A stretch of DNA of 64,000 bases from Candidatus Rokuibacteriota bacterium (GTDB lineage Bacteria > Methylomirabilota > Methylomirabilia > Rokubacteriales > CSP1-6), in assembly GCA_003220495.1 (NCBI GenBank), contig QHSP01000035.1, positions 1-64,000 on the forward strand. Reading direction: 5' to 3'. Both the position numbers and the translations under genes were made by a program. The notes below the pieces were generated by a model that had not been told where the DNA came from, did not search any database, and saw only the letters and a program-made list of their open reading frames with translations. Shown here piece by piece: positions 1,516 to 50,956 of this stretch (positions within the stretch are counted from its first letter, which is position 1; each line of letters begins with the position of its first letter).

Positions 1516-1977
1516 ATGGGAAGGATCGTCGTAACAGAATTCGTCTCGCTCGACGGTGTCATGGAGGCTCCTGGCGGCGGAGAGGGCTACAAGCACGCAG
1601 GTTGGACCTTCAAGATCGATCGCGGAAAGGAGGGCGACAAGTTCAAGCTCAATGAGACCCTCAACAGCGAGGCGCTACTGCTTGGGAGGGTGACCTATGA
1701 GGGCTTCGCTGCGGCCTGGCCGTCGAGGACCAATGAGTTCGCGACAAGTTCAACAGCATGCCCAAATATGTCGTCTCCTCGACCCGCGGTCGTCCTCGGA
1801 AGCGGCAAACGCCTGTTCGGCGATACGACCGACAAGAAGCGCCTGCGGCTCGCGGACTCAAAAACGGTCGGCGACGGGATTACGATTCTCATCTTCCAGC
1901 GGGCGGGTGAAGTCGCTAACAGGGAGGCCCGTGAGGGCGACAACCGGAGCGCCATCCGGGCGGATCGTCGCTGCTAG
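1516..1977 (+). pseudogene. Dihydrofolate-reductase-family (RibD C-terminal fold) gene, internally deleted
   Basis: The N-terminus MGRIVVTEFVSLDGVMEAPGG and the segment EALLLGRVTYEGFAAAWP are typical of YyaP/YwjB-type dihydrofolate reductase family proteins. After TNEFA a one-base loss shifts the frame: a GCG-GAC-AAG-like codon order would restore KFNSMPKYVVSST. The reading then jumps to PAVVLGSGKRLFGDT from near the C-terminus. About 50-60 residues of the usual middle are missing and the original frame is regained, so the ORF survives without a complete fold. It sits last in the cassette-like series and its 3' end abuts the next operon. Most likely inactive. Confidence 0.7.
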
Positions 1978-3254
1978 CGGATCGCCATCTCGGTCGGTTC
2001 GACGCCGCGTAACCCGTAGCGGCCCATGAAACGCAGGAGGCCACGGCTGTAGCCACGGAGCGTGCCCATCCCGGAGGCCTGTAGCGCGATGTGACGCTCG
2101 ATGTGGTTCTGGGCTGCGCTCTTGATGGCGTTGGTCCCGACCGCCATCCAGTCGCGTCCGGCGCGGAAGAGCGCCGCCATCCGGCCGTCGTAGAAGGTCG
2201 CCACCAGATCGAGCCAGGCGGTGAGCATCGCCGTCTGCATCGTCGCGTACGGCCGAAGCGCCGCCTCGAGCTCCGCGAGCGAGGGAGGCTGCTCGGATTT
2301 CGCGAACGGCGCCAGCGCGTCGGCCACCAGCTCGGCCGAGCGAAGCGCCAGGAGCACGCCGGGCGAGAGCATCGGGTCGACGAAGCCGAAGGCGTCGCCG
2401 ACCATCACCCAGCCGGGCCCGAGACCTCGGTGTGAGATCAGCTGGTAGTTGGCGTAGGTCGCGACCGAGGTGACGCGCTTGCTGCCGCCGCCGATCGTCG
2501 ACAGCCACGCGTCGGTCGCGATGGCCCGCTCGAGCCGCTCGGCCGGGCTCGCGCCGAGCCGAGCGGCGTCGTCGCGCCCCAGCACGATCCCGATCGAGAG
2601 CCGCTCGCGGAGCGGGATGCACCAGCTCCAGCCCGCGTCGAGACGCCTGATCAGCACCTGTCCGGGCTCGTCGTCCCAGGCGAAGTTCTCGAAGTGGGCG
2701 AAGTGCGCGACGTCCTTGCGCGGCCCGAAGCGGGCGCCGATGCTCAGGGCGCGCGCGCCGAGGCGGGCGCGCCCGGTGGCGTCCACGACGAGATCGGGTT
2801 GCCGGCCTTCGAGCGACGGCGCGGCGGCCAGGGTTTCGGGCGCCAGGCCGAGCTCGCGCCCACCTTCGCTGATCGGCTCCACGCGCGCGTGGGCCACCAC
2901 GCGCGCGACCCCACACGCGACCGCGCGCGCGAGCACCGCATCGTCGAATCGCGGGCGCGGAATGTTGTAGGCGTATGGGAACACGCCCGGCGCGAAGCGC
3001 TCGAAGGAGAAGCTGAAGCGGTCGTTCGGGGACCAGATGAAGGACACGCCCGGCTTCACACGGCTGAAGCTCGCGGTCTCCTCCTCGAGGCCGAGGCGCT
3101 GGAGGATCGGGACGACGGCGGGCACCAGGGATTCGCCGACGAGGAGCTCGGGACGACGGCCGTCGTCGAAGAGCGTGACCTTCGCACCCTGGCGCGCCAG
3201 CAGGATGGCCAGGGCGGCGCCGGAGGGTCCGGCGCCGACAATCGCGACTCTCAT
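1974..3254 (-). CDS. Flavin-dependent halogenase-like FAD enzyme (carrier-protein type candidate)
   Basis: A 426-residue FAD protein with the dinucleotide motif GAGPSG (residues 7-12) and GESLVP (40-45). It has WSWCIP at 209-214, fitting the WxWxIP halogenase signature, and FVDPMLSPG at 291-299, fitting the Fx.Px.Sx.G motif. Lys67 in SRVKPGVSF is at the place of the conserved lysine in carrier-protein-dependent halogenases. GDAFGFVDP is the usual FAD ribityl-binding region. It is the last gene of the 7504-1974 operon, coupled by ATGA to the adenylating enzyme. The carrier protein in the operon would be the natural substrate holder. A non-halogenating oxidase or geranylgeranyl-reductase-like role remains possible, since related flavoproteins keep parts of these motifs. 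Confidence 0.65.
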   Translation of the reverse strand: MRVAIVGAGPSGAALAILLARQGAKVTLFDDGRRPELLVGESLVPAVVPILQRLGLEEETASFSRVKPGVSFIWSPNDRFSFSFERFAPGVFPYAYNIPRPRFDDAVLARAVACGVARVVAHARVEPISEGGRELGLAPETLAAAPSLEGRQPDLVVDATGRARLGARALSIGARFGPRKDVAHFAHFENFAWDDEPGQVLIRRLDAGWSWCIPLRERLSIGIVLGRDDAARLGASPAERLERAIATDAWLSTIGGGSKRVTSVATYANYQLISHRGLGPGWVMVGDAFGFVDPMLSPGVLLALRSAELVADALAPFAKSEQPPSLAELEAALRPYATMQTAMLTAWLDLVATFYDGRMAALFRAGRDWMAVGTNAIKSAAQNHIERHIALQASGMGTLRGYSRGLLRFMGRYGLRGVEPTEMAIR

Positions 3255-21476: not shown

Positions 21477-22097
21477 CTAGCTCGAGCTCCAGGCGAACGG
21501 CGCGAAGTGGCCGTTGTTGCGGCCCGAGGTGTCGTCCCAGTTGATGCCGAACCCGTGCATGTGGCCGCGGGAAGCCTTCGCGAGCGCGAGCCGACGCGCC
21601 GCCGGATGGCCCACGTTGTCGAAGTAGATCGGCTCGTCCGGCTTGGCGCCGGCGATGCCTTCGATCGCGATGTCGAGCGTGCCCGGGATCGTCACGGAGC
21701 GGCGCATGCCATTCATCTCGAACTTGATGGGCTTCGCCTCGGCGCCTGCGAATTTGCTGATCAGCGGCGCGACCGCCGCCATCGGACCACCACCCTGGCC
21801 GCTCGCGATCGTGGTGAGCGCGTCGCGCTGCTCCTTGGAAGCGCGCTCGTCCAGGATGAGTCCGACTATCCAGTTACCCTGAATCATCGGGCCCGGCGTA
21901 TGGAGCAGGACGGCGAAGCTCAAGCCGTCGAGCCGGGTGGCTCCGTACTGACCTCGGTCGACGCGGAAGACGAGCCCCGCGTCGCAGTAACCCTTGGTCG
22001 GCCGCGCCGCGAGCCCGGACGTCGGGCATGGACACACGGAATCACAGCTGCAGGCTTCGCAGTATTCGCCGCTGATCTGCCACTGAACGTTCGCCAT
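21477..22097 (-). CDS. DUF1326 family protein
   Basis: A 206-residue protein beginning MANVQWQISGEYCEACSCDSVCPC. The Cys-rich CxxCxCxxxCxC segment at residues 13-22 is diagnostic of DUF1326. The remainder (GYCDAGLVFRVDRGQYG, NWIVGLILDERAS, HMHGFGINWDDTSGRNNGHF) matches the usual length and order. Function is unknown; the cysteines suggest metal or redox chemistry. DUF1326 genes commonly lie beside DUF2182 membrane proteins, as here (upstream in the same direction). An elaborate hairpin (22153-22195) lies between the two genes. Confidence 0.9.
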   Translation of the reverse strand: MANVQWQISGEYCEACSCDSVCPCPTSGLAARPTKGYCDAGLVFRVDRGQYGATRLDGLSFAVLLHTPGPMIQGNWIVGLILDERASKEQRDALTTIASGQGGGPMAAVAPLISKFAGAEAKPIKFEMNGMRRSVTIPGTLDIAIEGIAGAKPDEPIYFDNVGHPAARRLALAKASRGHMHGFGINWDDTSGRNNGHFAPFAWSSS

Positions 22098-22152
22098 GTC
22101 ACCCTCCAGCCGCAGGCTGCCCATAAGGGCCGTCTGCTTCGTTGACGCCCTC

Positions 22153-22195
22153 GGCTGCACGCTCAACGTACATCAAGTACGCCTCGCGTGCAGCC
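22153..22195. repeat. Compound inverted repeat between DUF2182 and DUF1326 genes
   Basis: GGCTGCACGC (22153-22162) pairs perfectly with GCGTGCAGCC (22186-22195). Inside, CGTAC (22167-22171) pairs with GTACG (22177-22181) around a 5-base loop, with a symmetric 4-base interior loop between the stems. It sits in the 158-base gap upstream of the DUF1326 start, so it could be a protein-binding site or an RNA element controlling that gene. No T-run follows on either strand. Confidence 0.5.
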
Positions 22196-22230
22196 TTCGG
22201 GCGCCGCCTCGCATCTGGACCCTTCTGAGC

Positions 22231-22251
22231 GGCCTGCAGATCAAGCAGGCC
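22231..22251 (-). terminator. Hairpin directly after the DUF2182 gene
   Basis: GGCCTGC (22231-22237) and GCAGGCC (22245-22251) form a perfect 7-bp stem with a 7-base loop, four bases past the end of the DUF2182 gene on its own strand. The position suits a terminator or processing site. The lack of a T-tract makes it weak evidence. Confidence 0.35.
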
Positions 22252-22255
22252 TGCG

Positions 22256-23068
22256 CTACATCGAGTGGCCGCCGACTCTCAGAACCAGGGCGAGGCCTGG
22301 ACGGACGGCGACGGCCACGCCGAGAAGCACGAGCGCGACGCCGATCGTTCGCGCGATCCACTCACCCCGCGGTAGAAGCTTTTCCGCCGCCACGACGGCG
22401 GCGATCAGCAGGACCCAGAGCAGACCCATCGCGCCGGCCACGACCAGCACCAGCATGAGCGCCCAGCAGCAGCCCAGACAGTAGAGCGCGTGGGCCCGGC
22501 CCATCGCCAGACCGCCCTGCCAGCCCTCGCGCCAGTGGCCGAACAGGAATCCGAGGGGACTCCGGCAGTGACGCAGACACACCTGCTTGAGCGGCGAGAG
22601 CTGGAAGATCCCGGCCGACACGAGCACGCCGGCCACGACGTAGGCGAGCACGCCGGCGCCCACGGCGCTGAGGACGACGCTCGCGAAGTAGATCGGAACG
22701 CCCGTCAGGGCCCAGAGCCCGAGGTACATGAGGGCGAACAGCCCGACCCGGATCGCCTTCAACGGTGTGCTCCCCGCGTTCCGCTGGGTCGCGGCGTAGA
22801 GGTCGATCATGGGCAGAGCGCTCGGCAGCATCATCGCCGTCATCATGACGGCCCACGCCGCCACGTAGGCCACCGCGTCGATCACCGACGGCGTCATCGC
22901 CATCTCCATGCCCGCCATGTCGGCGGCCTGCATCGGCGAAACCAGGACGCGGGCCCACGCGGCGACGGCAAGCAGGAACAGGAGCACCGTGGCGAGCATC
23001 GCGAAGGGCTCGCGGCCGGTTACTTGGGAGAGATCGGGCGGCGGCTCGCCGGAACCGCTGGCGCGCAT
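22256..23068 (-). CDS. DUF2182 multi-spanning membrane protein
   Basis: A 270-residue integral membrane protein with about seven hydrophobic segments. The Met-rich stretches MAGMEMAMTPS and AWAVMMTAMMLPSALPM are the DUF2182 hallmark, and CLRHCRSPLGFLFGHWREGWQGG with ALYCLGCCWALM provides Cys/His residues facing a possible metal site. The family is described as a predicted metal-binding integral membrane protein. It lies directly upstream of the DUF1326 gene in the same direction, a common pairing, so the two probably work together in an unknown metal- or thiol-related process. Confidence 0.9.
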   Translation of the reverse strand: MRASGSGEPPPDLSQVTGREPFAMLATVLLFLLAVAAWARVLVSPMQAADMAGMEMAMTPSVIDAVAYVAAWAVMMTAMMLPSALPMIDLYAATQRNAGSTPLKAIRVGLFALMYLGLWALTGVPIYFASVVLSAVGAGVLAYVVAGVLVSAGIFQLSPLKQVCLRHCRSPLGFLFGHWREGWQGGLAMGRAHALYCLGCCWALMLVLVVAGAMGLLWVLLIAAVVAAEKLLPRGEWIARTIGVALVLLGVAVAVRPGLALVLRVGGHSM

Positions 23069-23107: not shown

Positions 23108-23998
23108 TCAGCCGATGCGTGCGCGCACGAAGTCGCCGATGCCCGCGATGGCCTTCTCGGCCTCGTCCAGCATCGGCAGGAACCAGTGCCAGACGTGGAC
23201 CATCGCGGGCCATTCCTCGACCTTGACGTCCACACCGGCCGCGCGGGCCCGAGCGCCGAGACCGAGCGCGTCATCGAGCAGAACCTCGTCACTGCCCACC
23301 TGGACGAGCAGCGGCGAGAGACCTTTCAGATCGGCGTAGAGCGGAGAGACGAGCGCGGCCTTGCGGTCGCCGGTCCCGACGTACGCCTGCGCCATCGCCT
23401 CGACGCCGTCGCGCGTGACGATCGGATCTGCTGAAGCCTTGGTCGCGTAGCTGGCGCCACTGCACGTCAGGTCGACCCAGGGCGAGATGCAGATGCCGCC
23501 GCCTGGTCGAGGGAGCCCCCGGTCGCGAAGCGCGATAAGCGTCGCGACGGTGAGGCCGCCTCCGGCGGAGTCGCCGCCGAGGACGATCCGCCCGGGCGCG
23601 AGGCCGCGAGCGAGCAGCCACTGGTAGGCCTCGACGGCATCGTCCAGCGCGGCCGGGAAGGGGTGTTCCGGCGCCAGCCGGTAGTCGAGGAGCAGCGCCC
23701 GGATGCCGGCCGCTCGCGCGATCGCGGCGGCGAGGTGGCGGTGCGAGCGCGGCGAGCCGATTGCGTAGCCTCCGCCGTGGAAGTAGAGCACGACCGCGTC
23801 GGCTCTGGCTGCCGGCGGCGTGAGCCACTCGGCGGGCCGCTCCGGCGTCTCTACGATCTCCACCGCCACGTCGGCGGGTGTCGGGAAGACGCGCTCGGCG
23901 CGATCGTACTGGGCTCGGCGCTCCGCCAGGGTGAGCGAGCTCGACGGGGGAAGCTTCGCCAGGTGCTCCCGGACAGCTCGGATTCCACGCGCGGTCAT
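23108..23998 (-). CDS. Alpha/beta hydrolase, hormone-sensitive-lipase family
   Basis: A 296-residue cytosolic esterase. It has the HSL oxyanion motif YFHGGGYAIGSPRSH, nucleophile elbow GGDSAGGG, the acid in QVGSDEVLLDD and catalytic His in MVHVWHWF. The segment LLDYRLAPEHPFPAALDD is typical of the family, which hydrolyses short acyl esters. The start at 23998 overlaps the upstream nucleotidyltransferase stop (ATGA), so the two are one transcript. It also begins MTARGIRAVREHLAKLPP, the usual cap region. The physiological substrate is unknown. Confidence 0.9.
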   Translation of the reverse strand: MTARGIRAVREHLAKLPPSSSLTLAERRAQYDRAERVFPTPADVAVEIVETPERPAEWLTPPAARADAVVLYFHGGGYAIGSPRSHRHLAAAIARAAGIRALLLDYRLAPEHPFPAALDDAVEAYQWLLARGLAPGRIVLGGDSAGGGLTVATLIALRDRGLPRPGGGICISPWVDLTCSGASYATKASADPIVTRDGVEAMAQAYVGTGDRKAALVSPLYADLKGLSPLLVQVGSDEVLLDDALGLGARARAAGVDVKVEEWPAMVHVWHWFLPMLDEAEKAIAGIGDFVRARIG

Positions 23999-24789
23999 GT
24001 TCCCTCCAGCCTGGCAATCGCCGGGAAGACCACGGAGTGCGCACGGTGTAGATCCTCGGCGAAATCGACCTCGGTCCACGGCAACCCGGTCACGCCCACG
24101 GCCTCGACCCGTTGCCGGCTCACCAGCAGATGCAGCGCGTCCTCGTACTCGCAGATCCCCTGGCTATCCTCGATGACCTGCTCGAGCAGCCCGATCAGCT
24201 CGCGGCCAGCGTCCGGCCCGCACGTGAAGAAACCGACGCCCTCGCCGACGCGGTCCCATGCAGGGGGCACGACCTTCTTACCCAGCGCGATGACCCGGCC
24301 GCCCTGTACGTAGATCTTCACTTCCTCGCCGGTGTCGGCAAAGCCTTCGTCGATCAGGAACGCCTGCGCTGCCGGCGAGGCGACGAGCCGTCGCAGGAAC
24401 TCCCGCGGAAACACGACGTCGGCGTCCATGATGAGCGTGGGCCGGCGTCTGATCACGTCGCGCGCGCAGTAGAGGGACAGCGACGAGCCCTTCTGGTAGG
24501 CCGGGTTGTCGATGCACTCGATCGTCATCCCGAGGGGCGCCGTCGCCGCGAGCGCTCGGACCTGATCGGCGCAGTGTCCGACCACGATCACGACGTGCCG
24601 CACGCCGACCGCGTGGAGCGCGTCGAGCATCCGCGCGAGGATCGCTCGGCCGCCGACTGGAAGGAGCGACTTCTGGGTGTGGTCCGTCAGGGGCGCCAGC
24701 CGCCGGGCAACGCCGGCAGCCAGGATGATCGCCGTCAGCTCGCGCGCCGCCCCGGGGCCCGCCGCGTCTCGGCTCGCTGGTTCGTTCAT
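23995..24789 (-). CDS. Nucleotidyltransferase, LicC/sugar-phosphate type
   Basis: A 264-residue nucleotidyltransferase with LTAIILAAGVARRLAPLTDHTQKSLLPVGGR, the NTP- and Mg-binding N-terminus, then NPAYQKGSSLSLYCARDVI and LIMDADVVFPREFL. The pattern after the first motif fits cytidylyltransferases that activate phosphocholine, aminoethylphosphonate or similar head groups (LicC/PntC-like) as well as glucose-1-phosphate enzymes. The CDP-glycerol-transferase-like gene at 25992 on the opposite strand would be a natural consumer of such a CDP-activated group. The exact substrate is not readable. Confidence 0.8.
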   Translation of the reverse strand: MNEPASRDAAGPGAARELTAIILAAGVARRLAPLTDHTQKSLLPVGGRAILARMLDALHAVGVRHVVIVVGHCADQVRALAATAPLGMTIECIDNPAYQKGSSLSLYCARDVIRRRPTLIMDADVVFPREFLRRLVASPAAQAFLIDEGFADTGEEVKIYVQGGRVIALGKKVVPPAWDRVGEGVGFFTCGPDAGRELIGLLEQVIEDSQGICEYEDALHLLVSRQRVEAVGVTGLPWTEVDFAEDLHRAHSVVFPAIARLEGT

Positions 24790-24895
24790 GCGTTCACGGG
24801 GCCTATAGTATCCTGTGCGTAACCGAAATGGCGCAGGATCGGCACCAACGCGCGCTCTCGTGGCCCGCGGTCAATGACGGGAGGTTGACGCAGAA

Positions 24896-25693
24896 TTGAG
24901 CAAGACGACGACCCGGCAGTCGGAGACGGCTCTGGCGCCCGATTCTGCGCCGTCTCAGCGGGACGTGTTCCAGCGTGATGGCTTCGTGGTGGTGCCGGGC
25001 CTCTTCGACAAACAGGAAATCGCGCGAATTTCGGCGTGGACCGACGAGCTCGAGCGTGCTGCCGAAGTGCCCGGCCGAGCCATGAAGTACTTCGAGCCGA
25101 GCCTCTTGCGTCCGGGCGAGCGGGTGCTCCAGAGGATCGAGAACTTCTGCCCGTTCCACGCCGGGTTCGCCGAGCTGTGCGACGGGGACAAGCTCCGCGG
25201 CTTGGTGTCGCGCCTCCTCGGCGAGCCCGCGGTCCTCTTCAAGGACAAGATCAACTTCAAGCTGCCCGGCGGCGACGGCTTCAAGCCACATCAGGATCAG
25301 CAGGCCGGCTGGAGCGCCTACGCCGACCTCTTCGTCACCGCGATGGTCAGCGTCGACTCCACGACGGCCGAGAACGGGTGCCTCGAGCTGTGCGCCGGAC
25401 ACCACACGCGCGGGCTCATCGGCGAGGAGTGGAAGCCGCTCACCGACGACGACATGCGTCGCCTCGGGGGCCGCGCGGTGCCGACGCAGCCGGGTGACGC
25501 CGTGTTCTTCGACTCCTACACGCCGCACGCTTCGGCCCCGAATCTCACCGCCGAGCGCCGGCGCGTGCTCTACATCACCTACAATCGCCGGTCGGCCGGC
25601 GACCACCGCGTGCGGTACTACGCCGACAAGCGGAAGAGCTTTCCGCCCGACATCGAGCGAGATCCCAACCGGACCTACACGTTTCGTGTCTGA
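24896..25693 (+). CDS. Phytanoyl-CoA dioxygenase (PhyH) family protein
   Basis: A 265-residue Fe(II)/2-oxoglutarate oxygenase with DVFQRDGFVVVPGLFDKQEI at the start, the iron-binding HQD in GFKPHQDQQAGW, the distal His in YTPHASAPN, and RRVLYITYN with the 2-oxoglutarate arginine. It starts at TTG. It is divergent from the nucleotidyltransferase gene with 106 bases between, and upstream of the membrane and glycerophosphotransferase-like genes. It might hydroxylate the group that is later activated or attached to the cell surface; this is a contextual guess. Confidence 0.85.
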   Translation: MSKTTTRQSETALAPDSAPSQRDVFQRDGFVVVPGLFDKQEIARISAWTDELERAAEVPGRAMKYFEPSLLRPGERVLQRIENFCPFHAGFAELCDGDKLRGLVSRLLGEPAVLFKDKINFKLPGGDGFKPHQDQQAGWSAYADLFVTAMVSVDSTTAENGCLELCAGHHTRGLIGEEWKPLTDDDMRRLGGRAVPTQPGDAVFFDSYTPHASAPNLTAERRRVLYITYNRRSAGDHRVRYYADKRKSFPPDIERDPNRTYTFRV

Positions 25694-25717
25694 GTCACGA
25701 CGCGAGGAACCCACCGC

Positions 25718-25930
25718 ATGATCGTGAGTCGAGCCCTTCACATCGCGCTCGTCCTGGTGGCCTGGTTGTCGATCGCCTCGCCGGCCTACGCCTATCTCGA
25801 TCCGGGCACGGGCAGCATGCTCATCTCGGCGGTGCTCGGGGTGGCGGCGGCCGTCGCGCTCGCGGTCAAGATGTTCTGGTATCGCGTGGTCGGTTTTTTC
25901 CGCGGCAAGAGGCCCGCAGCGGACAAGTAG
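25718..25930 (+). CDS. Small membrane protein with YLDPGTGSM motif
   Basis: A 70-residue protein with two hydrophobic segments: an N-terminal signal-like one (HIALVLVAWLSIASPAYA) and a second (ISAVLGVAAAVALAVKMFWY). They flank AYLDPGTGSMLI, a motif found in a family of small envelope proteins that sit beside surface-polysaccharide genes. A basic cytoplasmic tail (GFFRGKRPAADK) follows. It lies 24 bases after the PhyH gene and 61 before the transferase gene. Probably a membrane partner of the transferase system; molecular role unknown. Confidence 0.75.
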   Translation: MIVSRALHIALVLVAWLSIASPAYAYLDPGTGSMLISAVLGVAAAVALAVKMFWYRVVGFFRGKRPAADK

Positions 25931-25991
25931 CGCGGACGAGCGCGAGCGCACGCACGCGACGGCGGGTGTCGCACCGAATGTCGCGCCGATC

Positions 25992-27230
25992 ATGAGCATG
26001 TGGCAGGACTGGAAGAGCTTTCGCCGTTTCCACAAGCTTCCGCCCCGCGACCGCAGCATCGTCTTCTATTCCGAGACGCATCAAGATTGGCATCATCTGC
26101 AGCCGCTCATCGACTTCCTGATCGAGCGACTGTCGCGGACGGTGTGCCACGTCACCTCGGAGCGCACCGCGCCGCTACCGTCGGCGCCCGACGCGAGCCA
26201 CACCTTCCGCATCCGGCCCGGCGCGCTCTGCACCTGGTTCTTCCAGACGATCAGGGCGGACGTGTTGGTGCTGACCATGCTCGATCTGCAGAATTTCCAC
26301 CTCAAGCGCTCGGTCCATCCCGTTCACTATGCCTACGTGTTCCACAGCATGGGCAGCACGCACATGGTGGACCACGCGAGCTCGTACGATCACTACGACA
26401 GTCTTTTGTGCGTGGGCCCCCATCACGTCGCCGAGATCCGGCGGCGCGAGGAGCTGCACCGCTTGCCGCCCAAGCATCTCTTCGCTCACGGCTATCCGCG
26501 GCTCGAGCGTCTCGTCGCGCTGGCCGGCGATGGGGAGCCGGCCCCAGCCCCGCGACGGCCTGCAGCGCGAACACCCGTTGAGAGTCGCGCCTCGGCCGGC
26601 GGGCCCCCCGCCCCGCGACGGCCTGCGGCGCGAACAACCGCCTTGCTCGCGCCGACGTGGGGTGAGCACTCGATCCTGCACGTCTGCGGCGAGCCCTTGA
26701 TCGCCGCCTTGCTGGGCGCCGGCATCCGCGTGATCCTGCGCCCGCACTACCAGACGACGCGTCTGGCGCCGCAGGTCGTCGAGCGCCTGGTCGCCCGGTT
26801 TGGCTCGGATCCGGGCTTCCGCCACGTCGTGCGCATGGAAGAGAGCGACTCGCTCCTCGAATCCGACGTCCTCATCTGCGATTGGTCCGCCATGGCGATC
26901 GAGTACGCCCTCGGCCTCGGCAAGCCCGTGCTCTTCGTCGACGTGCCGCCCCGCGTCCGGAACCCGAACTACGCCGAGCTCGGCCTCGAGCCCATGGAGA
27001 TGCGCATCCGGCGCGAGCTCGGGGCCGTCCTGCCGCTCGACCGCGTGGCCGACGCGCCGCGCCACGTCGCCGAGCTGTTGAGCGGCACCGCGGACCTCCG
27101 CAAGCGCAACGCGGCCCGGCGAGAGGAATGGGTGTTCAACTTCGGCCGCAGCGTCGAGGTGGGCGCGCGCGAGATCGCGCGGATCGCCGACGAGCGGGCC
27201 GGTATCGGCGCGCGCGGCCGACAGGCGTGA
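25992..27230 (+). CDS. CDP-glycerol glycerophosphotransferase-like (TagF-like) protein
   Basis: A 412-residue protein. The C-terminal half has the TagB/TagF-like block ALLAPTWGEHSILHVCG, RVILRPHYQTTRLAPQ, LLESDVLICDWSAMAIEYALGLGKPVLFVD, typical of enzymes that transfer polyol-phosphate from a CDP carrier. The N-terminal half (IVFYSETHQDWHHLQPLIDF, YVFHSMGSTHMVDHASSYDHYD) fits the GT-B-like first domain. Between them is a ~45-residue Pro/Ala/Arg-rich insert built on a 63-base duplication (26547-26640), unusual for the family. It is followed by an overlapping (GTGA) YejM-like gene. Confidence 0.8.
   Translation: MSMWQDWKSFRRFHKLPPRDRSIVFYSETHQDWHHLQPLIDFLIERLSRTVCHVTSERTAPLPSAPDASHTFRIRPGALCTWFFQTIRADVLVLTMLDLQNFHLKRSVHPVHYAYVFHSMGSTHMVDHASSYDHYDSLLCVGPHHVAEIRRREELHRLPPKHLFAHGYPRLERLVALAGDGEPAPAPRRPAARTPVESRASAGGPPAPRRPAARTTALLAPTWGEHSILHVCGEPLIAALLGAGIRVILRPHYQTTRLAPQVVERLVARFGSDPGFRHVVRMEESDSLLESDVLICDWSAMAIEYALGLGKPVLFVDVPPRVRNPNYAELGLEPMEMRIRRELGAVLPLDRVADAPRHVAELLSGTADLRKRNAARREEWVFNFGRSVEVGAREIARIADERAGIGARGRQA
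26547..26640 (+). repeat. Direct repeat with 63-base period inside the TagF-like gene
   Basis: GCCCCGCGACGGCCTGC, a purine, then GCGCGAACA begins at 26547 and again at 26610, about 30 bases nearly identical per copy. The period of 63 (21 codons) keeps the frame, so the protein contains APRRPAART twice. The intervening bases are GC-rich and low in complexity. It could be a duplicated copy of a dispersed genomic repeat. Confidence 0.7.
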
Positions 27231-29020
27231 GCCCGAGAAAGCGGCTGCTCCGCTGGCTGGGCTGGTTCGCCGTCGTGAACGCGGCGCTCCTGGGGATCAT
27301 CGGTCTTCGCTACCTCTGGCTCTACGCGGCGCTCGGCCGGACGGTCTCCTGGAGCTACGCCCTCGTCGCCTCCGTCGGCCACCTGAGCGCGCTCGCCTGC
27401 GTTCCGCTGCTCGTGTTGCTCGTTCCCGTGGCGACGCTGATCCCGCGCGCGCGCCTGGTGCTGCCGCTCGGTGTCGTGCTGGCGAGCGCCGGCGTCGCCG
27501 TCCTCGTGCTCGACAGCCTCGTCTTCGCCGAGAACCGGTACCACCTGAACGTCCTGACCTTCACCCTACTCGAGCCGCAGACGTGGGCGTTCCTCGCGCT
27601 CTATTTCCTCGTGGCCCTCGCGATCGAGTCGATGCTGGCGAGCTGGGTCTGGCAGCGGACGGCGCGCCCGACGCGCCGGGCCGGACGGTATCTCGCGCTC
27701 GGCCTCGTCGGTTGCTTCGTCACCGCGCACCTCGTCCACGCCTGGGCCGAGGCCCACTACGACGGCTCGGTGATGGCGCTCACCCGATACCTGCCGTTGT
27801 ACTACCCGCTCCGCAACATCGGTCTCCTGGCGCGGCTCGGCCTGATCGATCGGACGGCCGCACGCGAGCGCGGGGTCGGCGCCGCGCTCCAGCGGCCGGC
27901 GACCGGCGACCTGCACTATCCGCTGGCCCCGATCCAGTGCGCGCCGCGTACGCCCGCGCTCAACGTGTTGCTCGTCGTGATCGATGCCATGCGGGCCGAC
28001 GCCCTGACCCCGGAAGTCGCGCCAAGGCTCACCGGACTCGCGCGGAGCTCGATCGAGTTCGACCGGCACTACAGCGGCGGCAACTCGTCGCGCGCCGGGA
28101 TGTTCTCGTTGTTCTACGCCATCCCCGCGACGTACTTCGACGAGTTCGCCAGCCGCGCCCGGCCGCCGGTGCTGATGGACGTGATCCGCCAGCACGGTTA
28201 CGAGCTCGGCCTATTCGCCAGCTCGCCGATCTACCGCCTGGTCGACCTCGATCGCACGGCCTTCGCCCACGTGCCCAATCTGCGTCTGGAGACCTCCTCG
28301 GGCGACGACTCCAGCGGGAGAGATCGCGTGCTGACAGGCGAGTGGCTCGAATGGCTCGGCCGGCGGGACCCGTCGCGTCCGTTTTTCGGCTTCCTCTACT
28401 ACAACGCCGCGGTCTCCATCGAGGCGCCCGCCGACTATCACCCGGCGATTCCACCGCCTACCCGCTCCTCGGCGCAGCTGCGGTCGCGCAACGTGCGGTA
28501 CCTCGAGGCTGTGCACTACGTCGACTCCTTGCTGGGACAAGTGCTCGACGACCTGCAACGCCGCAAGCTCCTCGATCGCACGGTGGTGATCGTCACCTCC
28601 GACCACGGCATCGAGTTCGACGAGAACGGCCTCGGCTTCAAGGGCCACGGCACCTCGTACAGCGACTACCAGATGCGCACGCCGCTCGTGGTGCGCTGGC
28701 CCGGGCGCCCGCCGGGCAAGGTCGCGCGGCGGACGTCTCACAACGACATCGCGCCGACGCTGCTCACGGAGCTGTTCGGGTGCGCGAATCCGCCGTCCGA
28801 CTACGCGAGCGGATCCAGCCTCTTCTCGGACGCTCAGTGGAGCTGGCTCGTCGTCGCGAGCTACCGCGAATATGCCGTGGTCGAGCCCGAGCGCGTGACG
28901 GTGGTGTTCCCGGCCGCCTACGAGGTTCGCGGTCCCGACTATCGGCTTGTGCGCACCCAGGCGCCCCCCCGCGACGTCCTGCGCGCCGCGATGCTGGAGA
29001 TGAGCCGGTTCTACCGATGA
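27227..29020 (+). CDS. YejM/PbgA-like inner-membrane protein (DUF3413 plus sulfatase-fold domain)
   Basis: A 597-residue protein. The first ~190 residues hold five hydrophobic helices and LGWFAVVNAALLGIIGLRYLW, DSLVFAENRYHLN and AHLVHAWAEAHYDGSVM, which match the DUF3413 membrane domain of YejM/PbgA. The C-terminal sulfatase-like domain has VLLVVIDAMRADAL, HYSGGNSSRAGMFSLFY and VIVTSDHGIEFDENG. In enterobacteria PbgA governs LPS/cardiolipin balance through LapB/LpxC. Here SDHG and VIDAMRAD keep acidic metal-type residues, so enzyme activity is possible. The GTG start overlaps the previous stop; the gene sits between the TagF-like and YidC genes. Confidence 0.87.
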   Translation: MSPRKRLLRWLGWFAVVNAALLGIIGLRYLWLYAALGRTVSWSYALVASVGHLSALACVPLLVLLVPVATLIPRARLVLPLGVVLASAGVAVLVLDSLVFAENRYHLNVLTFTLLEPQTWAFLALYFLVALAIESMLASWVWQRTARPTRRAGRYLALGLVGCFVTAHLVHAWAEAHYDGSVMALTRYLPLYYPLRNIGLLARLGLIDRTAARERGVGAALQRPATGDLHYPLAPIQCAPRTPALNVLLVVIDAMRADALTPEVAPRLTGLARSSIEFDRHYSGGNSSRAGMFSLFYAIPATYFDEFASRARPPVLMDVIRQHGYELGLFASSPIYRLVDLDRTAFAHVPNLRLETSSGDDSSGRDRVLTGEWLEWLGRRDPSRPFFGFLYYNAAVSIEAPADYHPAIPPPTRSSAQLRSRNVRYLEAVHYVDSLLGQVLDDLQRRKLLDRTVVIVTSDHGIEFDENGLGFKGHGTSYSDYQMRTPLVVRWPGRPPGKVARRTSHNDIAPTLLTELFGCANPPSDYASGSSLFSDAQWSWLVVASYREYAVVEPERVTVVFPAAYEVRGPDYRLVRTQAPPRDVLRAAMLEMSRFYR

Positions 29021-30552
29021 GACGGCGGCCGCTCGGTGTGGCGCTCCTCTGCGTCATGTGCGCGGCCGCCCCACCCGTCTTTGCCGATGAAGGACGAGGT
29101 GGAAGCGTCCGCGTGGCAGGAGATGGTCTGGAACTCGTGGTCGCGCTCGACGGCGCCACGCCGGTCGAGTGGCGGGCCTGCCATCCGTCCTGTGCCGGCG
29201 CCGACCGCGGCTCCGGCACCGACATGCGTGTCGTCGCCGCCGACGATCCGGCGGCGATCCGGCTGATCATCCGCGACCTGGAGCCGCCGGTCGATCTGCA
29301 ACGCCTGCGATTCTCCGCCGAGCTCGGCGAGGACGAGCGCTCTCGGATCGCGACCCTGGAGGCCGACCTGCCGGTGCCCGGTGTCCGCTTCGTGAAGTCG
29401 TTCGCGGTATCCCGCGACGGCTACGGAGTCGTGATGACGGCGCGCATGGTCGGGCCGAACGCGGCCACGTTCATGTCGGGGCGGCGCCTCGAGCTCGAGC
29501 TGAGCGCCGGCCGTGGTCTGCTCCCGCCGCCGGCGGCGGGATTCGCCGCGATGCTCGAGCGAATGAGCCGGGTCATCGTCGCCGGCGGCGCCGTACGCGT
29601 GGTCGGCGACGACCGCCGCGAGCCGACGATGCTGCGCGCCGGCGACTGGATCGGATTTCGCAGCCGCTTCTGGACCCTGCTGGTTCGCTCCGACGGCGCC
29701 GCGGGCCTCGAGCCGCGACCCGGCGCGCCGGCCCCGCTGGGGCTGTCGGACGAGCGAGGGCGGCTCGCCTGGCGCTACACGTTCTATGCGGGCCCGCTGG
29801 AGCACGGTGCGCTGGCCCGCGCCGATCCGCAGCTCGGCCGGCTGCTCTTTTCCGGGCTCTGGTTCTGGCTACGTCCGCTGAGCTTCGGGCTCCTGTTTCT
29901 TCTGCGCGGGCTGACCGAGCTCATCGGCCATCCCGGCGCCGCGATCATCGCTCTCGCCGTGTCGGTCAAGATCCTCCTGCTGCCGCTGACGACCGTGGCC
30001 GAGCGTCTTCAGGAGCAGGTGAACGTCACGCAGGCGCGACTGCAGCCCGGCATCGACGCGATCAAGGCGGCCTACCGCGGTGAGGAGCGCACCCGGCGCA
30101 CCATCGCGCTCTACCGCGAGCAGGGCGTCCATCCGCTCTACACGCTCAAGAGCCTCGCGGGCTTCATGATCCAGCTTCCGGTGTTCGTCGCGGTGTTCGA
30201 CATGCTGGCGGAGGACTTCGATCTCCAGCGCGTGTCGTTCCTCTGGATCCGGGACCTGGCGCGACCGGACGCGCTGGCGCGGCTGCCCGCGTGCGTGCCG
30301 TTCTTCGGGTGCGACCTCAACCTGTTGCCGTTCCTGATGAGCGGCGTGTCGCTCGCGACCCTGCTGCGCTTCCGCTCCTCGGTCCTCACGCCGCCGCTGG
30401 TCCACCGCCAGCGGCGAAACTTGACGATCATCACGGCCCTGTTCTTCCTGCTCTTCTACACGTTCCCGGCCAGCATGGTCCTCTACTGGACCTCGACGAA
30501 CTCCTTCCAGCTCCTGAGCCAGGAGCTCGGGCGGTTATGGCGCCGGACGTGA
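29017..30552 (+). CDS. yidC: YidC/Oxa1-family membrane insertase, divergent copy
   Basis: A 511-residue protein with a signal-like N-terminus (LGVALLCVMCAAAPPVFA), a ~230-residue periplasmic domain, then the YidC core. The core blocks are IIALAVSVKILLLPLTTVAE, RTIALYREQGVHPLYTLKSL, MIQLPVFVAVFDMLAED, LLPFLMSGVSLATLL and FPASMVLYWTSTNSFQLLSQ. The groove arginine of canonical YidC is Lys here (SVKILLLPLT), and the central loop departs from the usual NPLGGC. It is coupled by ATGA to the YejM-like gene, not to rnpA/trmE, so it is likely a second, specialised insertase. Confidence 0.87.
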   Translation: MRRRPLGVALLCVMCAAAPPVFADEGRGGSVRVAGDGLELVVALDGATPVEWRACHPSCAGADRGSGTDMRVVAADDPAAIRLIIRDLEPPVDLQRLRFSAELGEDERSRIATLEADLPVPGVRFVKSFAVSRDGYGVVMTARMVGPNAATFMSGRRLELELSAGRGLLPPPAAGFAAMLERMSRVIVAGGAVRVVGDDRREPTMLRAGDWIGFRSRFWTLLVRSDGAAGLEPRPGAPAPLGLSDERGRLAWRYTFYAGPLEHGALARADPQLGRLLFSGLWFWLRPLSFGLLFLLRGLTELIGHPGAAIIALAVSVKILLLPLTTVAERLQEQVNVTQARLQPGIDAIKAAYRGEERTRRTIALYREQGVHPLYTLKSLAGFMIQLPVFVAVFDMLAEDFDLQRVSFLWIRDLARPDALARLPACVPFFGCDLNLLPFLMSGVSLATLLRFRSSVLTPPLVHRQRRNLTIITALFFLLFYTFPASMVLYWTSTNSFQLLSQELGRLWRRT

Positions 30553-48583: not shown

Positions 48584-50956
48584 GTGCTCGTCGCTCGCAT
48601 CGTCGTTGTGACGCTCGCCATGCTCGCGCTTCCCGCGTCCGCCTTCGCTCCCCCGAGAGAGGTTTCCGGAGCGCTCGATTTTTCTGGAATCGACGAAGCT
48701 GCCAACGAGGCCGTCGCCAGCGGCGAGGTCCCCGGCGTGGTGGTGCTGGTCGGTCGCGGCGACGACGTCTTGCTCCACCGAGCGTACGGATCGCGGCGCC
48801 TGCTCCCGCAGCCCGCCCCGATGACGCTCGACACCATCTTCGACCTCGCGTCCCTCACGAAGCCCTTTGGGACCACCTTGGCGGTCATGAGCCTGGTCGA
48901 GCGGGGAGCCATCAAGCTCGATGCCCCGCTCGGACGATACCTCAAGGAGTTCCGCGACAAGCAGCTCGATGAGATCACGATCAGGAGGCTCCTGACCCAC
49001 AGCGCCGGCCTCGCCGCCTATCCCGCGAACTCCATGGTCTCGGCCGGCTTTCCGAGCGCGGCGGGCGCGATTGTCAAGATGCCCCTCGATTATCCCCCCG
49101 GCTCTTCGTTCCAGTACAGCGATACCGGCTTCATCCTGCTCGCCGAGGTCGTCCGCAGGGTCAGCGGGGCTCCCCTCGACAAGTACCTGGAGCGAACGGT
49201 GTTTCGACCGCTCGGGCTGGCGGACACGAGCTTCCATCCGAAGGTGAGCGCGCTGCCCCGCGTGGCGCCGACAGAATTCGTCAACGGCATCCTCCTTCGG
49301 GGCGAGGTCCACGATCAGCGCGCACGCCTCCTCGGCGGGGTCGCCGGCCACGCTGGGATGTTTTCGACCAGCGCCGATCTTGCGCGCATCGTGCGGATGC
49401 TGCTGAATCGGGGCACGCTCGACGGCCAGCATATCCTCGGGCCGGCTACGGTGAAAGAGATGTGGGAGCCGGGACCCGACAAAAACATGGGTCGGGCGCT
49501 GGGCTGGGACGTCAGCTCGTCGTTCTCGAAAACGATGTCGCCGTTCTTTCCGGAGGGCTCCGTCGGCCACCTCGGTTTCACCGGTACCGCGGTCTGGATC
49601 GACCCGGCAACCAGAAGCTACGTGATCCTGTTGTCCAACCGTGTCCACCCGTATGGGGGAGGTGCCTCACGCATCCGGGATCTCAGGATTCGTGTCGCGG
49701 CCGCCGCCGGCGCCCAGCTCTTCCAGCCGCCCGTCGTCGCCGATCCAGGACCGATCAGTGGCCCGGCGGCCGATGGGTCGGCGCCCGAGATTCGACTGAT
49801 GCCGGGCGAGCCCGTGCTGCCGCAGGAGCGCGTCCTGACCGGGCTCGACGTGCTTACCGACCAGAAGTTCGCGCTGCTGTCAGGACACTCGGTCGGCCTG
49901 ATAACCAACCAGACCGGCATCGATCTGCACAGTCGCCGGGCGATCGACCTTCTCGCCCGAGCGCCGGGCGTCCGGCTGCAGGCGATCTTTTCGCCCGAGC
50001 ACGGGCTCATGGGCGTGGCCAACACGGACGTGCCACACAGTCGCGACGTCGTGACCGGCCTGCCGATCTGGAGTCTCTACGGCACCACCCGCCGGCCGAC
50101 CTCGGCGATGCTCAAGGACGTCACGCTCCTGGTCTTCGACATCCAGGACGTCGGCGTCCGCTACTACACCTACCTCACGACCCTCGTCTACGTCATGGAG
50201 GAGGCCGCGAAGCAGCGGATCCCCGTTCTGGTGCTCGACAGACCGAATCCCATCAACGGCCGGGTGGTCGAGGGACCGTTGATGGACCCCGATCTGCAAT
50301 CGTTCACCGCGCCCCACCCGATCCCGGTGCGGACCGGGCTCACGATCGGTGAGTTTGCGAGGCTGGCTGCCGCCGAGCGGAAGATCCCGGTCTCGCTCAC
50401 GGTGGTGCCGCTGGTGGGCTGGGATCGTGACCGCTGGTTCGACGAGACCGGACTGCCCTGGGTGAACCCGTCGCCGAACATTCGATCGGTCACCCAGGCG
50501 TTGCTCTACTCGGGCGTGGGGCTCCTCGAGGCGACGAACCTCTCGGTGGGCCGCGGGACGGACATGCCCTTCGAGGTCATCGGCGCGCCCTGGATCGAGC
50601 CCCGAGGTCTCGCCGAGGCGCTCAATCGGCAGGGACTCCGCGGTGTGAGATTCGACCCGATCTGGTTCACCCCGACGGCAGACGTCTACACCAACATCTC
50701 CTGTGGCGGGGTCAGGGTGGTGGTCACCGACCGCGAGGCGATCCGACCGGTGACGGTTGCCTTCGCGCTGGCGCGGACTCTACGCGAGCGTCACCGGGAC
50801 CAGTTCAGGCCGGAGAGCATCCAGAACCTTCTGGTAAACCGGTCGACGATGTGGGCCTTCCTCAGGGGCGAAGTTCTCGACCGGCTCGTCGCCTGGGCCG
50901 AGGTTGACCGCAGCAGCTTCTTGAATCGCCGCGCGTCGTACCTCATGTATCACTAA
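48584..50956 (+). CDS. Fusion of serine beta-lactamase-like hydrolase with NamZ (DUF1343) exo-muramidase
   Basis: A 790-residue exported protein (signal VVVTLAMLALPASA). Residues about 30-375 are a class C beta-lactamase/esterase domain with Ser90-x-x-Lys93 (SLTK), FQYSDTGF as the Tyr motif and GHLGFTG in place of KTG. Residues about 415-790 are DUF1343: GLITNQTGID, IFSPEHGLMG, FDIQDVGVRYYTYL, LDRPNPINGRVVEGP and TNLSVGRGTD. DUF1343/NamZ removes terminal MurNAc from peptidoglycan fragments, and the N-terminal domain could act on peptide or ester groups, so the fusion is probably a periplasmic wall-recycling enzyme. GTG start. Confidence 0.9.
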   Translation: MLVARIVVVTLAMLALPASAFAPPREVSGALDFSGIDEAANEAVASGEVPGVVVLVGRGDDVLLHRAYGSRRLLPQPAPMTLDTIFDLASLTKPFGTTLAVMSLVERGAIKLDAPLGRYLKEFRDKQLDEITIRRLLTHSAGLAAYPANSMVSAGFPSAAGAIVKMPLDYPPGSSFQYSDTGFILLAEVVRRVSGAPLDKYLERTVFRPLGLADTSFHPKVSALPRVAPTEFVNGILLRGEVHDQRARLLGGVAGHAGMFSTSADLARIVRMLLNRGTLDGQHILGPATVKEMWEPGPDKNMGRALGWDVSSSFSKTMSPFFPEGSVGHLGFTGTAVWIDPATRSYVILLSNRVHPYGGGASRIRDLRIRVAAAAGAQLFQPPVVADPGPISGPAADGSAPEIRLMPGEPVLPQERVLTGLDVLTDQKFALLSGHSVGLITNQTGIDLHSRRAIDLLARAPGVRLQAIFSPEHGLMGVANTDVPHSRDVVTGLPIWSLYGTTRRPTSAMLKDVTLLVFDIQDVGVRYYTYLTTLVYVMEEAAKQRIPVLVLDRPNPINGRVVEGPLMDPDLQSFTAPHPIPVRTGLTIGEFARLAAAERKIPVSLTVVPLVGWDRDRWFDETGLPWVNPSPNIRSVTQALLYSGVGLLEATNLSVGRGTDMPFEVIGAPWIEPRGLAEALNRQGLRGVRFDPIWFTPTADVYTNISCGGVRVVVTDREAIRPVTVAFALARTLRERHRDQFRPESIQNLLVNRSTMWAFLRGEVLDRLVAWAEVDRSSFLNRRASYLMYH

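Follow-up and report, generated by a model that had tools for sequence, protein, structure and literature searches.

The window analyzed here, a stretch of 64,000 nucleotides, is from contig C60 of a 6.0-Mb metagenome-assembled genome (G000) of an uncultured soil bacterium of Candidatus Rokuibacteriota, and has a GC (guanine plus cytosine) content of about 70%. It contains a block of six genes, coding for a LicC-like nucleotidyltransferase, a PhyH-family oxygenase, a 70-amino-acid membrane protein with a YLDPGTGS motif, a TagF-like transferase, a YejM-like membrane protein, and a YidC-like protein that we refer to as YidC2 (Table 1). The block behaves as a movable cassette, and its products probably decorate the cell surface with a group linked through phosphate or phosphonate. 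A preliminary description of the region had listed five of these genes, all of which are present at the positions it gave with homologues conserved along their full lengths; the gene coding for the small YLDPGTGS protein had been overlooked. The LicC-like gene is divergent to the other five, an arrangement from which the intervening region is predicted to be a probable bidirectional promoter. The TagF-like, YejM-like and YidC2 genes are translationally coupled, as had been proposed, with 4-base overlaps between stop and start codons at both junctions (GTGA at 27227-27230 and ATGA at 29017-29020).

Table 1. Genes and features of the six-gene cassette, with coordinates in the window.
Feature	Position	Strand	Evidence or remark
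LicC/PntC/IPCT-type nucleotidyltransferase (P0001)	23995..24789	-	NTP_transf_3 3.1e-17
Intergenic region between LicC-like and PhyH genes	24790..24895	.	Gene arrangement
PhyH-family Fe(II)/2-oxoglutarate oxygenase (P0002), TTG start	24896..25693	+	PhyH 5.3e-28
70-amino-acid membrane protein, AYLDPGTGSM motif (P0004)	25718..25930	+	Kept in all 7 clusters
TagF/TarL-like CDP/CMP-linked phosphotransferase, predicted GT-B fold (P0003)	25992..27230	+	PF04464 (Glyphos_transf) 24.1 bits
Two copies of a 25-base repeat inside the TagF-like gene	26548..26635	+	
YejM-like membrane protein (P0005), GTG start	27227..29020	+	DUF3413 1e-50 and Sulfatase 2e-35
YidC2 (P0006), ATG start	29017..30552	+	60KD_IMP 1e-24

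In a sample of 95 genomes from the phylum, the TagF profile matches seven (G000, G003, G007, G026, G077, G080 and G082) and the YidC2 profile matches the first six of these; the seventh has YidC2 as a fragment at a contig end, so that the two genes share the same 7 of 95 genomes, a coincidence whose probability under independence is ~1e-10, uncorrected for relatedness. A degenerate DNA pattern for AYxDPGTG matches 14 genomes in a domain-wide sample of 387 (a reversed-pattern control gave 0 matches), and within the sampled phylum genomes it matches exactly the six TagF-positive ones. All six cassette genes are linked in every cluster with a sufficiently long contig, and in three pairwise comparisons (the window with G026, the window with G080, and G026 with G080) the block is the sole common stretch within the stretches compared; its behavior is thus that of a movable unit ~6.6 kb in length. 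The gene order, which the preliminary description had proposed to compare across genomes, is reshuffled in G082 (YejM-like, LicC-like, PhyH, small protein, TagF-like, YidC2), and the linkage is kept there too. An alpha/beta hydrolase gene at 23108-23998 was considered as a further member and rejected, as it is absent from the G026 and G080 blocks and has switched sides in G007. Searches of plasmids using three TagF-like queries and a YidC-sulfatase query gave no matches, and a YejM query returned mainly ordinary enterobacterial yejM; a contig scan with the TagF alignment gave matches in Rokubacteria only, the peptide patterns chosen being narrow.

Taken together, the conserved linkage, the exclusive co-occurrence and the gene fusions seen in another phylum (described below) support, at the level of sequence comparison, the view that the cassette genes form one system. 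The preliminary description had made its joint system depend on conserved co-occurrence; the co-occurrence is conserved, and the proposal survives. The LicC-like gene does not share the strand of the other five, and in one genome (G008, L015), in which no TagF-like gene was found, a YejM-like gene cut at a contig end lies beside ATP-binding cassette (ABC) transporter permeases, as might be seen if the genes were chance neighbors without joint function; however, linkage that persists despite rearrangement and changes of genomic location, together with the co-occurrence and the fusions, makes this extremely improbable.

The YejM-like protein has the organization of YejM (PbgA/LapC), with a DUF3413 transmembrane part and a periplasmic domain of the alkaline phosphatase superfamily (sulfatase fold), and aligns full-length to E. 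coli YejM (E value 4e-69). It scores 287 bits against the YejM family NCBIfam NF038282, below the curated cut-off of 825, and also scores against LtaS (NCBIfam 8.8e-7; structure 2w8d 5e-6). It differs from YejM at the active site, where it has TSDHG in place of TAGRG, with Asp459-His460 where the E. coli and Salmonella proteins have Gly-Arg, and with Ser in place of the Thr nucleophile. In YejM, Thr302, Asp268, Arg451 and His468 sit at the corresponding site (PMC7576196), and when mapped on these residues the YejM-like protein has the complete LtaS/EptA-type set of an acidic metal ligand, a Ser/Thr nucleophile and an Asp-His pair; D253, S288, D459, H460 and H474 are present in all five full-length copies. 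Because the metal-binding Asp-His pair lost in enterobacterial YejM is kept, the protein is more likely an enzyme than a regulator of LpxC, and its site, which is nearer to those of LtaS and EptA, fits an active phosphotransferase or hydrolase.

LpxC is present in the genome, in answer to the preliminary description's call for lipopolysaccharide (LPS) genes, and the host is therefore considered to be an LPS-bearing cell. The YejM-like protein could then control LpxC turnover as in enterobacteria, its neighbors being unrelated LPS-modification genes, as its architecture, its full-length match to E. coli YejM and the presence of LpxC would allow. We regard this as very unlikely and reject it on the basis of the kept metal ligands, the score well below the YejM cut-off and a patchy distribution: close homologues are found in only 5 of 59 relatives within this LPS-bearing phylum, so the protein appears unnecessary for LpxC control. 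The role of YejM in LPS control, to which the preliminary description had pointed, thus does not extend to this protein.

A canonical YidC, complete in its periplasmic domain, is encoded on a separate contig (C159) near mnmE, parA/parB and dnaA (names assigned by sequence recognition), and YidC2 is accordingly a second YidC, as first described. It keeps the 60KD_IMP domain of the YidC/Oxa1 insertases (87.3 bits, cut-off 35) but has a reduced periplasmic domain and a divergent Oxa1/YidC core. Relatives in another phylum are fused to a membrane sulfatase-type domain in proteins of ~912-930 amino acids (L083:3496-6288, L083:6325-9066 and L084:10736-13474), with tandem copies in G434; we found no published description of such a YidC-sulfatase fusion. 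Three indels unite YidC2 with the fused YidC domains and are missing from 19 canonical YidCs: the first cytoplasmic loop is longer by four residues, two residues are deleted, and three are inserted after the HP/NP motif. In a phylogenetic tree, canonical YidC (83/95, n=19), YidC2 (98/94) and the fusions (100/100) form separate groups, and YidC2 is therefore interpreted as a paralogous clade of the YidC/Oxa1 superfamily. At the groove position of the canonical Arg/Lys, YidC2 has Lys (K318) and the fusions have Ser/Thr.

Members of the YidC/Oxa1 family are established membrane insertases, and YidC2 may simply serve the YLDPGTGS protein and the YejM-like enzyme as their own insertase or chaperone, without a role in either chemistry or lipid movement. 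The translational coupling with the YejM-like gene and the basic K318 favor this, but the genome already has a canonical YidC, and the Ser/Thr groove of the fusions and their one-to-one pairing of a YidC domain with a sulfatase-type enzyme would be odd for an insertase; we give this explanation somewhat less than an even chance. A preprint reports that E. coli YidC scrambles lipids in vitro, in liposomes (PMC10491306), which makes lipid movement by YidC2 physically plausible. The YidC2 clade might then act as a lipid flippase or scramblase, with the TagF-like enzyme loading the phosphoryl or phosphonyl group on a lipid inside, YidC2 carrying it across, and the fused or coupled YejM/LtaS-type enzyme unloading it outside, although we consider this unlikely. 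In the literature we found nothing relevant tying YidC to CDP-glycerol, LicC, pepM or YejM paralogues, and the fusion of YidC2 relatives to what is probably a surface-modifying enzyme points to a possible function of YidC-type proteins of which we found no published report. Given the in vitro scrambling, the fusion of YidC to a periplasmic phosphotransferase-type domain makes a biological role in moving lipids directly testable.

The predicted structure of the TagF-like protein (predicted local distance difference test, pLDDT, 82) has TarL with cytidine diphosphate (CDP)-ribitol as its best Foldseek match (7.8e-9), and aligns with TagF (3l7k) over 330 positions spanning residues 1-405 (Z 21.2, root-mean-square deviation 4.4). 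Uridine diphosphate N-acetylglucosamine 2-epimerases equal TagF by Z; the TagF alignment begins at residue 1. The model indicates a glycosyltransferase B (GT-B) fold resembling TagF/TarL, a family that polymerizes CDP-glycerol or CDP-ribitol. The protein differs from the TagF/TarL wall teichoic acid polymerases in its length of ~400 amino acids, in its low identity to them (14-16%), in its LPS-bearing host and in having no further teichoic genes in the cassette block. Synthesis of a teichoic-acid-like poly(alditol phosphate), in which the LicC-like enzyme would make a CDP-alditol, the TagF-like enzyme would polymerize it and the YejM-like protein would act like LtaS, agrees with the rank of TarL and TagF among the top structural matches and with the LtaS scores given above. 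It is nonetheless improbable, as the block is without a TagD-fold CDP-glycerol synthase, a primase or an export pair, PhyH is left unexplained, and the nearest TagF-like relatives are in phosphonate clusters. The 25-base direct repeat lies in an insertion that the TagF-like gene has only in the window, is absent from homologues, and is possibly a small mobile repeat or a local duplication.

The YLDPGTGS protein matches no Pfam or NCBIfam model above cut-off. In six other genomes of other families (G116, G169, G303, G099, G219 and G411) its gene adjoins one coding for a protein of 462-490 amino acids, which is without a Pfam family in the single member scanned, and a membrane sulfatase flanks this pair, so that the YLDPGTGS protein often accompanies membrane sulfatase-type enzymes. 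In G434 and G435 a YVDPGTG segment is fused N-terminally to the TagF-like enzyme.

The LicC-like gene is kept in all 7 clusters, and the nearest solved structures to its product are CTP:inositol-1-phosphate cytidylyltransferase (9e-13), PntC (6pd1, 2e-9) and LicC (1jyk, 1e-8), PntC ranking third among the solved relatives; long branches leave its placement in a tree unsettled. The PhyH protein has an HxD...H motif (H132, D134 and H211) that is invariant in 7 copies, and its best curated family is the methylphosphonate hydroxylase PhnY (NF052437, 1.8e-51), with 175 bits against a cut-off of 500. LicC-like PntC activates phosphonates with cytidine monophosphate (CMP), and the tailoring steps that follow carbon-phosphorus bond formation have been called enigmatic (PMC6697681). 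The cassette resembles that Pnt pathway in having a LicC-like cytidylyltransferase that would activate a group for the cell surface, and differs in its YejM-like, YidC2 and YLDPGTGS parts; the text of PMC6697681 makes no mention of TagF or CDP-glycerol enzymes. The Lic phosphocholine pathway (LicA-D) likewise activates a phosphoalcohol with a LicC-type enzyme and transfers it to glycans of the surface, but the cassette transferase is TagF-like and not LicD-like, and PhyH is present; LicA, LicB and LicD are absent from the block and the adjoining genes scanned, the rest of the genome not having been searched.

Relatives of the cassette genes in another phylum are found with genes for phosphonate synthesis. 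Among the domain-wide genomes, one outside the phylum of the window (G199) carries a closely related TagF-like gene (2e-76), in a row with those coding for a YLDPGTF small protein, a PepM-cytidylyltransferase fusion, Ppd, an iron-type alcohol dehydrogenase and a membrane sulfatase; G420, of the same class, also has a TagF-like gene with PepM, Ppd and the alcohol dehydrogenase. In G434 and G435, the YVDPGTG-TagF gene overlaps that of the YidC-sulfatase fusion and PepM and Ppd are nearby, and the G434 cluster additionally codes for a LicC-like enzyme and an aminotransferase of class V. The PepM proteins of these genomes have the EDKx5NS motif in 4 of 4 cases. As related TagF-like enzymes adjoin membrane sulfatases in these phosphonate clusters, the pairing of TagF-like and YejM-like proteins is less odd than had been claimed. 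A few other genomes outside the phylum have weak TagF-like matches that adjoin LicC-like genes within clusters of glycosyltransferase type; such pairs are found in other phyla at L045-L048, with no pepM in the stretches read.

We propose, with a probability of about 0.6, that the movable six-gene cassette decorates the cell surface, its six products acting jointly. We infer the substrate, order of steps, acceptor and YidC2 role as follows. The LicC-like enzyme would couple a small phosphoryl or phosphonyl compound to CMP to give the donor, and PhyH would hydroxylate this compound before or after activation. The TagF-like enzyme, anchored to the membrane by the YLDPGTGS protein, would attach the group to an acceptor at the cytoplasmic face, either a lipid or a glycan, and on the periplasmic side the YejM-like protein, with its intact metal site, would complete delivery to the final acceptor in the envelope. 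YidC2 would be dedicated to the cassette, as an insertase for its membrane parts or as a carrier that takes the modified lipid from one side of the membrane to the other. The earlier proposal that these genes activate and transfer a phosphorus-linked group is in this form supported as probable, in an LPS-bearing cell. Little is known of how surface groups activated with CMP are delivered to their final site in diderm envelopes, and the cassette offers a small, movable set of genes that includes a definite candidate for the transferase, a small conserved partner protein and a YidC of a special clade.

A phosphonate substrate is suggested by the TagF relatives, by the family hint from PhyH, and by a ppd-pepM pair in the window's own genome (C82, L057:1861-4480), in which PepM is fused to a LicC-like domain. 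The phosphonate genes that the preliminary description had called for are thus present in part, and several observations weigh against this substrate or against the scheme as a whole. As assembled, the pepM copy is broken by an internal deletion and a frame shift; it is the sole pepM in the seven cassette genomes, none of which has an intact one (0/7), and intact pepM is found in nine cassette-free genomes. The LicC-like enzyme is no nearer to PntC than to the inositol-phosphate or phosphocholine enzymes, the PF04464 score of the TagF-like protein is just above the cut-off of 22.1 bits (relatives score 34-43 bits), the AlphaFold model of the YejM-like protein has a pLDDT of 50, too low to use, and the cassette block has no acceptor or transport gene. 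With no intact pepM accompanying the cassette within the phylum, we do not take phosphonate as the settled substrate; a scavenged phosphonate, phosphocholine or another phospho-alcohol is possible.

Elsewhere in the window, a DUF1326 and PpoB2 copper-chaperone-like pair (21477-23068) adjoins the cassette, as it does in G007. A tryptophan-halogenase-like flavoprotein is encoded at 1974-3254 on the minus strand, and a single gene at 48584-50956 joins a beta-lactamase-fold domain to NamZ exo-N-acetylmuramidase domains.

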